A DNA stretch of 22,100 nucleotides from a virus. Each line of letters starts with the position of its first letter. Position 1 is the first letter of the stretch. The stretch covers positions 1-22,100 of the IMG/VR virus record IMGVR_UViG_3300029319_000576; one strand, 5' to 3'. Positions 15,339-22,100 of the stretch are shown piece by piece. A model generated the notes under the pieces. It was given only the letters and a program-made list of their open reading frames with translations, made no database searches and was not told where the DNA came from. A program made the translations under genes and the position numbers.

Positions 15339-15593
15339 TTACGTATCTTTCCATCCCTCTTCTTTCATTATCCTTTCTACATGCTCTAACGAAAACTTTT
15401 GTCCACTACGAGCCTCGACTGCTGCTCTTACGTAGTAAACATCACTATGAGGGATATGTAATTTATCTAATCTATTAGTACGGACAGCACGATAAAATGT
15501 TTTAAGCACATTATCTGTATATAGTTTTACGGATTTTTTCCTCATTGTCAAGTTCAATGTATATTTACGTAGGGGGTTGTCAGGATAAGACAC
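15339..15593 (-). CDS. First gene of late operon, 84 aa, unknown
   Basis: This promoter-proximal gene of the minus-strand operon encodes a basic helical protein with the segment SVKLYTDNVLKTFYRAVRTN and PHSDVYYVRAAVEARSGQKF near the C-terminal half. No known domain is recognised; an HTH-like fold at residues 50-80 cannot be excluded. The start is GTG at 15593 without a clear Shine-Dalgarno, and the in-frame ATG at 15545 (68 aa) is an alternative. The leader contains the AACATT-type palindromes. Confidence 0.55.
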   Translation of the reverse strand: MSYPDNPLRKYTLNLTMRKKSVKLYTDNVLKTFYRAVRTNRLDKLHIPHSDVYYVRAAVEARSGQKFSLEHVERIMKEEGWKDT

Positions 15594-15689: not shown

Positions 15690-15888
15690 ATCAGTTAAAG
15701 TGTTTGCCCGGCTGCCCTTGTTCGTATACTTTTAAAAAACATATTAACAGTTATTTTAGTGGTTAACACTTGATTTTCCTAATCTGTGTATTTGTACATG
15801 CATATAACGTGGGTACGGGGGTGTGGCAGTCGCATGCCGTACTGAAAAAATGATAGTTTTTAGGCAAGATTGACGGAAAAAAATATTT

Positions 15889-15944: not shown

Positions 15945-15963
15945 AACTGATATTGTATCAGTT
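15945..15963. repeat. 19-bp inverted repeat upstream of first sigma54-like site
   Basis: The perfect 8-bp arms AACTGATA and TATCAGTT are separated by TTG. The repeat ends 13 bp before the first sigma54-like promoter and is found once. A TTTT run follows, but the AT-rich stem makes it a poor terminator. A single operator is plausible. Confidence 0.4.
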
Positions 15964-15976
15964 TTCTTTATGTAAC

Positions 15977-15993
15977 TTGGCACAAATCTTGCA
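15977..15993 (+). promoter_or_regulatory. Sigma54-like promoter P1
   Basis: TTGGCACAAATCTTGCA fits the RpoN consensus TGGCAC-N5-TTGCW, with GG (15979) and GC (15991) separated by exactly 10 bp. Predicted start is near 16003, with no gene until 16215; it may add to P2 and P3 or give a leader RNA. Confidence 0.6.
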
Positions 15994-16050
15994 TCAGCAA
16001 ATTTCATGCCAAAATGAGACATAGGAGCATATATTTTTTTATGGTCATTT

Positions 16051-16067
16051 TTGGCACGCTTCTTGCT
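16051..16067 (+). promoter_or_regulatory. Sigma54-like promoter P2
   Basis: TTGGCACGCTTCTTGCT is a full match to the RpoN consensus TGGCACG-N4-TTGCW, with GG-N10-GC. It lies 93 bp upstream of P3, between P1 and the TGTCAAA palindromes. Confidence 0.62.
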
Positions 16068-16077
16068 ACTATCACAA

Positions 16078-16133
16078 TGTCAAAATTTTGACAGTTGGGA
16101 GTGTCAAAAAAGCAGCTTGTCAAATAATTGACA
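16078..16133. repeat. TGTCAAA-type palindrome pair
   Basis: The perfect 16-bp palindrome TGTCAAAATTTTGACA (16078-16093) and a near-perfect copy TGTCAAATAATTGACA (16118-16133) have centres 40 bp apart, with a half-site TGTCAAAA at 16102-16109 between them. They lie directly upstream of P3. The right arm TTGACA of the second copy could also act as a -35 box (17 bp to GAAAAT at 16151). Confidence 0.55.
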
Positions 16134-16143
16134 CTTTTCAAAG

Positions 16144-16160
16144 TTGGCACGAAAATTGCA
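16144..16160 (+). promoter_or_regulatory. Sigma54-like promoter P3 of first early gene
   Basis: TTGGCACGAAAATTGCA is a full consensus RpoN site with GG-N10-GC. The predicted start (about 16171) falls just ahead of palindrome copy 2, and the gene at 16215 follows after AGGAG. This is the best placed of the five sites. Confidence 0.68.
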
Positions 16161-16173
16161 GGATATCCATTAA

Positions 16174-16190
16174 TTAACCAAGTTGGTTAA
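16174..16190. promoter_or_regulatory. 17-bp palindrome copy 2
   Basis: Identical TTAACCAAGTTGGTTAA, starting 14 bp after P3's TTGC and ending 24 bp before the ATG at 16215. The position just past the transcription start suits a repressor operator. Confidence 0.68.
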
Positions 16191-16214
16191 AAAATAAAAA
16201 TAGGAGAAAAAAAA

Positions 16215-16457
16215 ATGACTTGTAGATTAAATAAAAATCAAATTAAGTTTTATGATCAAGTTGAATTAAATAATAACTTAAAATTAATATCTGATAAATT
16301 TGATGTGGATATTAAAAAACTTAAAAAAATGTATTTTGTTGCAAATAAAGAAAATACATTAAATAAAGAATTGTTTAATGATCTAGTATCAACTTTAAAA
16401 AATGAAACAAAAGAAATTAAAACTTTAATTCATTTAGATCGATCAATTTTGGCATAG
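16215..16457 (+). CDS. Early gene 1, 80-aa lysine-rich protein
   Basis: This is the first gene of the rightward unit. It is a soluble, helical, Lys/Asn/Leu-rich protein with no motif I recognise (start MTCRLNKNQIKFYDQVELNN). The AGGAG 8 nt upstream and the run of A to the ATG are the same as in the next gene, so both leaders seem to be copies. Coding DNA is much more A-rich than the genes after 17300. The last 9 nt, including the stop TAG, form part of promoter P4. Being the first gene behind P3 and a palindrome, it is a candidate autoregulator, but no helix-turn-helix is clear. Confidence 0.65.
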   Translation: MTCRLNKNQIKFYDQVELNNNLKLISDKFDVDIKKLKKMYFVANKENTLNKELFNDLVSTLKNETKEIKTLIHLDRSILA

Positions 16458-16465
16458 TAATTGCA
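16449..16465 (+). promoter_or_regulatory. Sigma54-like promoter P4
   Basis: TTGGCATAGTAATTGCA keeps GG-N10-GC and TTGCA, with T for C at the last base of the -24 hexamer. It overlaps the stop codon of early gene 1, and its predicted start is about 16476, upstream of palindrome copy 3 and early gene 2. A second ATTGC follows 10 bp later (16471). Confidence 0.6.
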
Positions 16466-16488
16466 TAGCAATTGCAACTTTAACATTT

Positions 16489-16505
16489 TTAACCAAGTTG
16501 GTTAA
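16489..16505. promoter_or_regulatory. 17-bp palindrome copy 3
   Basis: Identical TTAACCAAGTTGGTTAA between P4 and the ATG at 16536, followed by an AGGAG plus A-run leader that matches the one before early gene 1. Confidence 0.68.
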
Positions 16506-16535
16506 AAAGCATTTTAAAAAATAGGAGAAAAAAAA

Positions 16536-17171
16536 ATGCAAATAATAGAAAATAAAAAAGAGTTAAATTTATCTGATGGAATTAATTATTTAGATAAAAT
16601 TAACAAATATAATAAAACTTCAAGTGATAACATTGAAAAAAGATTTAACGATTTTTTACCTTATTTTTCAATGTATTGTGAATTTGTTGCAGATTGTAAA
16701 AAGATTGCAAGAAATAAACATAAAGAAAAAAAGCTTTCGCCTAAAACACTTGAAAAAGTCATGAATGAAAAACAAAAAAATTCATATTCAATATATAAAG
16801 CAATTCATTCTTCTGAAAAAACTGCAATTGATAACATTGCAAAAAATTCAAGTGAATTTGTTAACTTAGTTAATGAGCGTAAATTAGATGAGAAAAAAAG
16901 AAATCCAATTAATTTTCGTGGAATTTATAATTTAAAAGATAAACCAAAACAAGAAAAAACTTTTGATGATATTGTTAAGTCTTTTACTGAGCGTAATATT
17001 AAAAGCGTAATTGGTGAAATATCTTTTACTTCTGACGCAGAAAAACATAAATATTTTATTAATGAGTTTATGAAATCTTTTTCTAAACAATTTGATTTAA
17101 CTATTATTGATAATGAAACAAAAGAAAATGAAGAAATTGCTCAAGATTTAAAAATGATTTCTTCAATGTAA
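16536..17171 (+). CDS. Early gene 2, 211-aa protein of unknown function
   Basis: A Lys/Asn/Ile-rich soluble protein, predicted almost wholly helical, with segments NDFLPYFSMYCEFVADCKKI (38-57) and ERNIKSVIGEISFTSDAEKH. There is no signal peptide, membrane segment or nuclease or polymerase motif. It is preceded by AGGAG 8 nt upstream and by P4 plus palindrome copy 3. Palindrome copy 4 and a strong terminator follow its stop within 65 nt, so it forms its own transcription unit. Base composition matches early gene 1 and differs from the later genes, which suggests a shared origin of this two-gene block. A host-takeover or regulatory role is only inferred from earliness. Confidence 0.65.
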   Translation: MQIIENKKELNLSDGINYLDKINKYNKTSSDNIEKRFNDFLPYFSMYCEFVADCKKIARNKHKEKKLSPKTLEKVMNEKQKNSYSIYKAIHSSEKTAIDNIAKNSSEFVNLVNERKLDEKKRNPINFRGIYNLKDKPKQEKTFDDIVKSFTERNIKSVIGEISFTSDAEKHKYFINEFMKSFSKQFDLTIIDNETKENEEIAQDLKMISSM

Positions 17172-17174
17172 CAT

Positions 17175-17191
17175 TTAACCAAGTTGGTTAA
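17175..17191. promoter_or_regulatory. 17-bp palindrome copy 4
   Basis: Identical TTAACCAAGTTGGTTAA starting 3 nt after the early gene 2 stop and 6 nt before the terminator stem. No sigma54-like site is next to it, unlike copies 2, 3 and 5. Confidence 0.62.
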
Positions 17192-17197
17192 AATATT

Positions 17198-17234
17198 GAG
17201 TGAGATTTATTTCTCACTCTTTATTTTTTTTTTT
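17198..17234 (+). terminator. Rho-independent terminator after early gene 2
   Basis: The perfect 8-bp arms GAGTGAGA (17198-17205) and TCTCACTC (17212-17219) enclose a 6-nt loop and are followed by a tract of 14 T with one A (17220-17234). It should end transcripts from P1-P4, or be controlled by antitermination. Confidence 0.85.
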
Positions 17235-17256
17235 GTGCCACTACTATCACTAGTGG

Positions 17257-17284
17257 GGAGTGAGGAGTGAGGAGTGGCGAGTGA
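17257..17284. repeat. Four tandem 7-bp repeats
   Basis: Units GGAGTGA, GGAGTGA, GGAGTGG and CGAGTGA run without gaps between the terminator and the gene at 17305. The GAGTGA core is the same as in the terminator arm. Each unit resembles a Shine-Dalgarno (GGAG). Confidence 0.6.
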
Positions 17285-17304
17285 ATTTTATATAGGAGTG
17301 ACAA

Positions 17305-17559
17305 ATGCCAAGAGCAAAAAATCAAACAATGTATTGGGATAATGGTATTCGTGTTCATGTAAATCGTAGTCGTTTGACTTCGTCTTTGCACAGAATTGCC
17401 AAGCATCAAACACGCACAGACTTCGAGTGGGGAGCTATCGATCAGATCGTTGAGTATCGTAACGATCAAGACACAAAAAAACATCATGCTAAAAAACAAC
17501 ACCAAGCTATCGTATCGCTTTGTAATGAGTGGCGAGACAAACTTGGTATTGACTACTAG
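17305..17559 (+). CDS. Early protein, 84 aa, unknown
   Basis: A basic, His-rich, polar protein that begins MPRAKNQTMYWDNGIRVHVN. It has no recognised domain; the central part, SSLHRIAKHQTRTDFEWGAI, looks helical. The ATG has AGGAG 6 nt upstream. It is separated from early gene 2 by a strong terminator and has no sigma54-like site of its own, so its expression depends on read-through or on a promoter I cannot see. P5 begins 8 nt after its stop. Codon use is less A-rich than in the two preceding genes. Confidence 0.62.
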   Translation: MPRAKNQTMYWDNGIRVHVNRSRLTSSLHRIAKHQTRTDFEWGAIDQIVEYRNDQDTKKHHAKKQHQAIVSLCNEWRDKLGIDY

Positions 17560-17566
17560 TTTCATT

Positions 17567-17583
17567 TTGGCATGGAAATTGCA
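17567..17583 (+). promoter_or_regulatory. Sigma54-like promoter P5
   Basis: TTGGCATGGAAATTGCA has GG-N10-GC and TTGCA, with T at the last base of the -24 hexamer as in P4. Its predicted start (about 17594) is just before palindrome copy 5, the same geometry as P3 with copy 2. It would drive the long downstream operon. Confidence 0.65.
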
Positions 17584-19132: not shown

Positions 19133-19305
19133 CAACAGTAAATGATTTATTAAATATGTTTGATCTGCATAAACGTCTATGCAAGTTATCAAACAAGAAA
19201 TCGCTAGACTTTGAGGACTTTACTTTAGTATTTATACAAAGTAATTACACAAACGTACAAGCAAATGCATTTAAACATTTAACCAAGTTGGTTAAAAATG
19301 ACTAA
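19129..19305 (+). CDS. Small early protein, 58 aa
   Basis: The ATG at 19129 overlaps the upstream stop (ATGA) and has GGAGAG 5 nt before it; an upstream TTG in frame is less likely. The product starts MTTVNDLLNMFDLHKRLCKL and is unknown. Its C-terminal codons L-T-K-L-V-K are palindrome copy 6, so the regulatory repeat is written into the protein. It overlaps the next gene by 8 nt. Confidence 0.55.
   Translation: MTTVNDLLNMFDLHKRLCKLSNKKSLDFEDFTLVFIQSNYTNVQANAFKHLTKLVKND
19279..19295. promoter_or_regulatory. 17-bp palindrome copy 6, inside coding sequence
   Basis: Identical TTAACCAAGTTGGTTAA inside the end of the 58-aa gene and 2 nt before the ATG at 19298. No sigma54-like site lies upstream of it, and it fills the place where the ribosome binding site of the next gene would be. 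Confidence 0.6.
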
Positions 19306-19489
19306 CAAGTTAACACATTTTCAAAAGATGGATAGGCTTAAAAGTTTATATGTTAGGCATTGTGAGAAGTTTGGAAAGTTAAGTAAAGAGAGATACTTAG
19401 GTGTTTTAGATGGTCTAGATTTAGCTATGGAGTTAAACGAGAGCATCCAAAACTTTGAGAGAGATTTACGTAATGATAAAAAGAATTAA
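19298..19489 (+). CDS. Small early protein, 63 aa
   Basis: A helical, charged protein, MTNKLTHFQKMDRLKSLYVR at the start and ERYLGVLDGLDLAMELNESI in the middle. No motif is recognised. There is no Shine-Dalgarno: palindrome copy 6 occupies that position, so translation is probably by coupling from the overlapping upstream gene or is controlled at the palindrome. It overlaps the next gene by 17 nt. Confidence 0.52.
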   Translation: MTNKLTHFQKMDRLKSLYVRHCEKFGKLSKERYLGVLDGLDLAMELNESIQNFERDLRNDKKN

Positions 19490-21620: not shown

Positions 21621-21841
21621 AAGTTTTAAATTCATTAAAATTAAAAGATGTGTTCTACGAGTTTGTACACACCAGAAAAACTAGTTTCGAGGAGTTAGAA
21701 TATACTGCTCGTCACATGGGATATCTTTTAGTAGGCATAAAGTTTCCTAACGATCATGTTTACAAAGATAGACCACCATCTCCTGCTTACTTAATTGTAG
21801 AGCATGGACAAACAAATAAACATTACAGATTGGAGGTATAA
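21617..21841 (+). CDS. Early protein, 74 aa, unknown
   Basis: The protein MKVLNSLKLKDVFYEFVHTR continues with KTSFEELEYTARHMGYLLVG and a proline-rich turn, PPSPAYLIVEHG. GAGGAG precedes the ATG. The C-terminal part looks like a beta strand pair. No family is recognised. The methyltransferase gene begins 1 nt after its stop, so the two are probably cotranslated. Confidence 0.58.
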   Translation: MKVLNSLKLKDVFYEFVHTRKTSFEELEYTARHMGYLLVGIKFPNDHVYKDRPPSPAYLIVEHGQTNKHYRLEV

Positions 21842-21842
21842 T

Positions 21843-22100
21843 ATGAATGTATTAAATTTATTTGGTGGTATGGAAGCAGGAAGACTTGCTATGGACAGAG
21901 CCAATATATCTGTGGATAAATACTATTCTGCAGAGATTGACCCTTATGCTATTAAGATAGCAAACAAAAATCATCCTGATATAATACAGTTGGGAGATGT
22001 AACTAAAATAAATACTAAGGATTTACCTAAGATTGATTTACTTCTCTGTGGCTCACCATGTCAAGGATTTTCTTTTGCAGGAAAACAGTTGGCATTTGAT
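21843..22100 (+). CDS. C5 cytosine DNA methyltransferase, truncated by window edge
   Basis: The first 86 codons of a DNA (cytosine-5) methyltransferase are present. Motif I is NLFGGMEAGRLA (5-16), the AdoMet-binding loop. A strand with AEIDPYAIKIA (31-41) is motif II/III, and catalytic motif IV is LLLCGSPCQGFSFAG (64-78), with Cys71 in the PCQ core. The sequence is of the phage/Dnmt3-like type. GGAGG lies 7 nt upstream. The remaining motifs, including target recognition, lie beyond the window. In a phage it may protect DNA against host restriction. Confidence 0.9.
   Translation, partial: MNVLNLFGGMEAGRLAMDRANISVDKYYSAEIDPYAIKIANKNHPDIIQLGDVTKINTKDLPKIDLLLCGSPCQGFSFAGKQLAFD

Follow-up and report, generated by a model that had tools for sequence, protein, structure and literature searches.

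A conserved cluster of predicted sigma54 (RpoN) promoters in the control region of an HMO-2011-type podophage

The control region between the divergent gene blocks of an uncultured marine HMO-2011-type podophage carries six strict sigma54 (RpoN) -24/-12 elements. Good support for the proposal that they are RpoN-type promoters comes from their spacing, from the statistics, from their conservation and from the finding of such sites in a second lineage. It is probable that they are genuine sigma54 promoters that control the phage programme and are served by host RpoN and a host activator. The sites are listed in Table 1 with other features of the window, which is the whole 22,100-base stretch of DNA that was analysed. 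An initial annotation had described the five plus-strand sites, P1 to P5, and all five were confirmed, each with GG-N10-GC, as was its reading of P2 and P3 as full TGGCACG-N4-TTGCW elements. The sixth strict site, P-, on the minus strand (16012-15996), was absent from its list; the observation is real and was understated. All six sites have the -24 GG and the -12 GC exactly 10 bp apart in a TGGCAC/TTGC context. P3 also fits the extended upstream consensus mrNrY (AAAGT), and the remaining sites in the window fit it partly.

Table 1. Features of the control region and its surroundings (window coordinates)
Feature	Sequence	Position	Strand	Remarks
First late-side gene, conserved marker		15342..15545	-	conserved in HMO-type phages
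O1, palindrome	TTAACCAAGTTGGTTAA	15889..15905	.	centre -107 to P1
P1, sigma54 -24/-12 element	TTGGCACAAATCTTGCA	15977..15993	+	strict match; predicted +1 ~16004
P-, sigma54 element	TTGGCATGAAATTTGCT	15996..16012 (read 16012-15996)	-	strict; toward late genes; predicted +1 ~15985
P2, sigma54 element	TTGGCACGCTTCTTGCT	16051..16067	+	full consensus TGGCACG-N4-TTGCW; predicted +1 ~16078
U1, inverted repeat, candidate enhancer (bEBP) site	TGTCAAAATTTTGACA	16078..16093	+	centre -86 to P3, -100 to P-
U2, inverted repeat, candidate enhancer (bEBP) site	TGTCAAATAATTGACA	16118..16133	+	centre -46 to P3, -140 to P-
P3, sigma54 element	TTGGCACGAAAATTGCA	16144..16160	+	full consensus incl. upstream AAAG; predicted +1 ~16171
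O2, palindrome	TTAACCAAGTTGGTTAA	16174..16190	.	centre +11 to P3
80-aa ORF		16215..16457	+	missing between P3 and P4 in relatives
P4, sigma54 element	TTGGCATAGTAATTGCA	16449..16465	+	strict; over stop of ORF 16215-16457; predicted +1 ~16476
O3, palindrome	TTAACCAAGTTGGTTAA	16489..16505	.	centre +21 to P4
First conserved early gene, 211 aa		16536..17171	+	199 aa in relatives, 25-26% identity
O4, palindrome	TTAACCAAGTTGGTTAA	17175..17191	.	after stop of ORF 16536-17171
Intrinsic terminator closing first early unit		17198..17230	+	stem sequence differs among relatives, pairing kept
P5, sigma54 element	TTGGCATGGAAATTGCA	17567..17583	+	strict; ahead of second early operon; predicted +1 ~17594
O5, palindrome	TTAACCAAGTTGGTTAA	17597..17613	.	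centre +11 to P5
O6, palindrome	TTAACCAAGTTGGTTAA	19279..19295	.	ahead of ORF 19298-19489

The placement of the sites was also borne out. Apart from P4, which overlaps a stop codon, they lie in non-coding DNA, and three of them stand directly upstream of genes: P3, P4 and P5 are 44-70 nt ahead of a start codon, in each case one with a Shine-Dalgarno-like GGAG. Sites on the same strand are spaced by at least 74 bp in the window. P1 and P- are arranged face to face with 2 bp between them, and because of this short distance their footprints overlap, so polymerases at P1 and P- should exclude each other.

The excess over shuffled controls that was expected from the initial annotation was found. 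The window holds six strict sites on both strands, compared to a mean of 0.01 and a maximum of 1 in 300 dinucleotide shuffles of the window, and for the control region alone the mean was 0.0013 strict sites in 3000 shuffles. When the half-elements were held fixed and the spacer between them was varied from 0 to 15 in the window, N5 gave six matches, N11 gave one and every other spacer gave none. Since only N5 is enriched and the shuffles are near zero, it is the exact sigma54 geometry, and not base composition, that is enriched.

By gene content and synteny, the virus record of 22,100 bases covers part of an HMO-2011-type podophage genome. HMO-type terminase and portal, integrase, helicase and primase-like genes were found in HMO-2011 order, with divergent early and late blocks, and the near relative G006 has an integrase and a helicase in the same order as HMO-2011. 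Late genes run leftward on the minus strand from 15545 and early genes run rightward from 16215, which is the layout of HMO-2011; the labels "early" and "late" are taken from this synteny and not from expression. A C-5 cytosine DNA methyltransferase is present in the early block (21804-22100 in the window, cut by the window end; 5469-6608 in contig L488). Since a close relative has a tyrosine integrase, the phage may be temperate.

The terminase matches that of Puniceispirillum phage HMO-2011, a SAR116 phage, at 84% identity across 90% of its length, that of Roseobacter phage CRP-1 at 78% across its full length and that of SAR11 phage HTVC033P at only 53%. The initial annotation had seen a puzzle in SAR11, a host of similar marine phages reported to lack rpoN. 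An annotated RpoN has indeed been reported absent from a freshwater SAR11 (LD12) strain (PMC12113158), and SAR116 and Roseobacter are also among the hosts of HMO-type phages (PMC9038755). With these terminase identities the puzzle mostly dissolves: the phage does not group with the HTVC033P subgroup of SAR11 phages (53% vs 84% to HMO-2011), and SAR11 is an unlikely host because the kinship to HMO-2011 and CRP-1 exceeds that to HTVC033P. A search for the host through genome contigs gave five matches, all on MAG contigs (Bacteroidetes, Flavobacteriales, Marinimicrobia) that look like phage contamination, and these were set aside.

HMO-2011, CRP-1 and CRP-345 share with the window the divergent gene layout, a terminase that is 78-84% identical, the position of the control region and a common conserved block, but they have zero strict RpoN sites anywhere in their genomes. 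A whole-genome scan of 15 public phage genomes (HMO-2011, eight Roseobacter CRP phages, two SAR11 phages, SIO1, Lentibacter phage ICBM1, an uncultured Manatee Spring phage and Sinorhizobium phage phiM6) found no strict RpoN site. Just upstream of P1, at 15945-15963, lies a palindromic AACTGATATTGTATCAGTT with counterparts in HMO-2011, CRP-1 and CRP-345. An Rfam search gave no credible match.

Control regions of other HMO-type phages were fetched with the small conserved late-side gene at 15342-15545 (minus strand) as a marker, and 80 regions were obtained. The nearest relatives form clade A (L164, L165, L166, L169 and partly L170 and L051; L169 and L507 are one phage), in which P1 to P5 occupy homologous positions. 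P1 is kept in all six of these contigs and P5 in L164, L165, L166 and L169. P- is kept in L164-L166 and L051 and lost in L169/L170. In an alignment of the window with L164, L166 and L169, all 45 core columns (nine for each of the five sites) are invariant, as are 20 of the 25 N5 spacer columns, and GG-N10-GC never changes. In the same alignment, only 2 of the 20 bases downstream of P3 and 7-8 of 20 in the P4 flanks are invariant. The elements are thus conserved selectively over their surroundings (45/45 in the core vs 2-13/20 in the P3 and P4 flanks). The distance from P3 to P4 is 82-83 bp in the relatives, and in the window they are separated by the 80-aa ORF. The protein of the first conserved early gene is predicted to be helical at low confidence, and the model (pLDDT 45) is not interpretable.

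RpoN sites recur in a second lineage, clade B (L179, L182, L186, L187, L189). Measured from the marker start, its two plus-strand sites lie at about 610 and 710 bp and its single minus-strand site at about 295 bp. L234 has one site per direction in the same control region. The proposal of an early control region was incomplete in this respect: P- and the opposing clade B site point toward the late genes on the minus strand. Clades A and B are sisters neither on the marker tree, which has 68 residues and is poorly resolved, nor on the terminase tree, in which L083 is the sole clade B member; well-supported forks lie between them, and intervening lineages, among them HMO-2011, L080/L193, L088/L171 and L089/L177, are without sites. 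Independent gain in the two clades is the simplest reading of these trees. Another possible explanation is that the pattern may reflect exchange of control regions or repeated loss. Over all 80 HMO-type control regions, N5 gave 31 matches and any other spacer 0-3, and the early flanks of the 80 loci held 37 matches in 285 kb compared to 4 in 414 kb of late flanks, with near-identical contigs counted in both comparisons.

Viral contigs were also scanned for two RpoN sites 50-80 bp apart. Many contigs among the matches listed have 3-7 strict sites within one intergenic region; such arrays, again among the matches listed, are found at L396 7080-7276, L389 5952-6147, L377 10284-10460, L388 1662-1839 and at least about 60 further loci in L369-L447, and 43 of 68 array loci are linked via common genes. 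In L377, L389 and L396 the array has terminase-side genes on one flank and the opposite gene block on the other. One array contig encodes a DNA polymerase with 40% identity to the enzymes of Roseobacter phages such as SIO1, and no isolate close to the array-bearing phages was found. Adjacent sites are most often 26-28, 37 or 47 bp apart, with a helical periodicity of 0.35 vs a null mean of 0.07, among the matches listed.

These arrays bear on the best of the rival explanations, an unlikely one, which holds that the motif is the site of a phage or host DNA-binding protein (a repressor, replication initiator or alternative sigma factor) resembling sigma54, and that the cluster is an operator array or an origin. 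The sites cluster where two gene blocks diverge, as operators and origins commonly do, and the helically phased spacings of the unrelated phages are too tight for a polymerase at each site, among the matches listed. However, positions outside the search pattern in 175 array sites, among the matches listed, also follow the sigma54 consensus, including the extended one (A 0.70 at -4, A/G 0.80 at -3, G/A 0.89 at -1 and only G/A after CAY). The N5 bases vary while GG-N10-GC never does, and the wider spacing in the window, with three sites just before genes that have ribosome sites, also speaks against a protein of this kind. A poising or decoy array, which would trap the sigma54 holoenzyme of the host as closed complexes, chiefly to draw it away from host stress genes, and would not act as productive promoters, is an improbable reading of the window. 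Several near-consensus sites in tandem, the overlapping P1/P- pair and the dense arrays of other phages fit it, and since the array spacing is too tight for one polymerase per site there is room for such a role in those phages; in the window, however, P3, P4 and P5 each stand a short distance ahead of a start codon, and the unit that P1-P4 feed ends at a conserved terminator. It is most improbable that the real early promoters are of the sigma70 type (in the block at 15743-15811, common to HMO-2011 and the Roseobacter phages that have no RpoN sites, or at TTGACA-like sequences) and that the RpoN-like sites are chance matches or relics, since chance is excluded by the shuffles and the spacer test, relics would not retain every core base while their flanks diverge, and sigma70-like matches in the region show no excess (17 vs 19.4 in shuffles). 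The block itself, GTGGTTAACACT..CCTAATCTGTGTATTT, is conserved in the HMO-2011 group, including the Roseobacter phages, and is possibly an ancestral promoter or origin.

Genuine sigma54 promoters would need an activator. The sigma54 holoenzyme forms a closed complex, and its opening requires a bEBP and ATP. The initial annotation had suggested that the phage might encode a factor with the same site preference; this was not upheld, as neither a Sigma54_DBD (PF04552) nor a Sigma54_activat (PF00158) domain was found in 17 phage records, all of them fragments, in a search that detected its positive controls. The absence of both domains from these records points to host RpoN and a host bEBP. Because no clade A or B record is a complete genome, it is possible that a phage activator is encoded in unseen parts.

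Candidate sites for the activator are the inverted repeats U1 and U2. They are two copies of the form TGTCAA-N4-TTGACA, for which 0.17 are expected per shuffle with one mismatch allowed. In clade A, their arms are invariant in 24 of 24 columns, compared to 4 of 8 in the centres and 13 of 24 between the repeats, and clade B has two such inverted repeats side by side. Enhancer sites of ATP-driven activators usually lie 80-150 bp upstream of sigma54 promoters, and U1, U2 and O1 are located at bEBP-like distances from the promoters. U1 and U2 fit the published NifA site TGT-N10-ACA (PMC4999443) and nearly fit the published FleQ box GTCAAT-N2-ATTGAC (PMC10723142). The likeness to alphaproteobacterial NifA-RpoN promoters (PMC4999443) extends to the TGGCACG-N4-TTGCW element, its spacing and a TGT-N10-ACA repeat 46-140 bp upstream of two promoters. 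In contrast to bacterial RpoN promoters, those described here belong to a phage control region and form a tandem series with one site reversed, and the usual RpoN targets, such as nitrogen-fixation genes, are lacking. With the Pseudomonas FleQ box (PMC10723142), the repeats share the 14-bp frame GTCAA-N4-TTGAC, but the sixth base is matched by at most one half in the phage, and some relatives that lack RpoN sites have the box too. These are L213, L226 and, with weaker boxes, L219; the early side of L213 has up to five GTCAA-N4-TTGAC-like boxes at 377-540 bp from the marker start. This occurrence weakens the link of the repeats to sigma54, and the box-binding protein may be independent of it. 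A role of U1 and U2 as activator sites linked to sigma54 is plausible.

A second set of repeats, O1 to O6, consists of six identical 17-bp copies in the window. In relatives, TTACCAAGTTGTTAA and close variants are present at mostly matching positions, and this change in concert is what is expected for operators of one DNA-binding protein. O2, O3 and O5, just after P3, P4 and P5, are probably operators of a regulator. A 5' RNA hairpin was considered and rejected. The palindromes of the window can form a weak fold (-5.1 kcal/mol, with z -2.1 to -2.8 for the copies downstream of P3 and P5), and the P3 and P5 transcripts are predicted to begin 3 nt ahead of it, but a hairpin role is less likely than a protein operator because the TTACCAAGTTGTTAA of the relatives breaks the RNA stem. 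In viral contigs, TTAACCAAGTTGGTTAA gave 20 matches, which were single, scattered and without RpoN sites. A composite of an RpoN site and AACCN5GGTT gave 51 matches in viral contigs, mostly in coding DNA of one gene (GTTGGCATTTGGTTTGCTGC...), and was discarded. HMO-2011 (L028; first 1600 bases of L007) differs in having its own repeated palindrome, AGTCCGACAGCGGACT, before the early genes in a similar place.

The following mechanism is proposed from these features. On entry of the genome, host RNA polymerase with host RpoN would bind the sites as stable closed complexes, which would wait for the host ATP-driven activator. Binding of a dimeric activator to the TGTCAA-N4-TTGACA repeats, or else to O1, would open P1-P4, and transcription from these would cover the short first early unit and end at the terminator. 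P5, also opened by the activator, would serve the following operon, and the late side could be supplied from P-. A separate regulator on the palindromes just after the +1 of P3, P4 and P5 would turn these promoters down, as a shut-off or for timing. The start of the phage programme would in this way be tied to a host physiological signal.

No paper describing phage early genes driven by RpoN was found in a search of open-access literature. A related case is the phage-shock response (PspF-sigma54) of Escherichia coli and Salmonella, in which phage infection is coupled to sigma54; there, however, the host genes are sigma54-dependent and not phage genes. Sigma54 promoters are a known element, and their use as a conserved cluster in a phage master control region is new. 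Sigma54 promoters are off by default because they do not fire without an ATP-driven activator, which is the opposite of what is expected for the first genes of a lytic phage. The cluster points to a start of infection through an activator-dependent host switch, for which no phage precedent was found in the open-access literature.

The control-region reading predicts hosts with rpoN and a NifA/FleQ-like activator. If it is true, the onset of infection depends on host physiology in some lineages of a marine phage group that is abundant worldwide. A broader reading, with slightly less than even confidence, is that RpoN control is a widespread and as yet undescribed phage strategy, in which at least two HMO-type lineages and at least one unrelated uncultured group independently gained clusters at the early/late divergence and infection would proceed only with an active host enhancer-binding protein. 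If this is true, whether the lytic programme runs, or whether a phage with an integrase enters lysis or lysogeny, would depend on the nutrient, stress or motility state of the host. Control regions of this kind would also offer a way to search viromes for physiology-gated phages.
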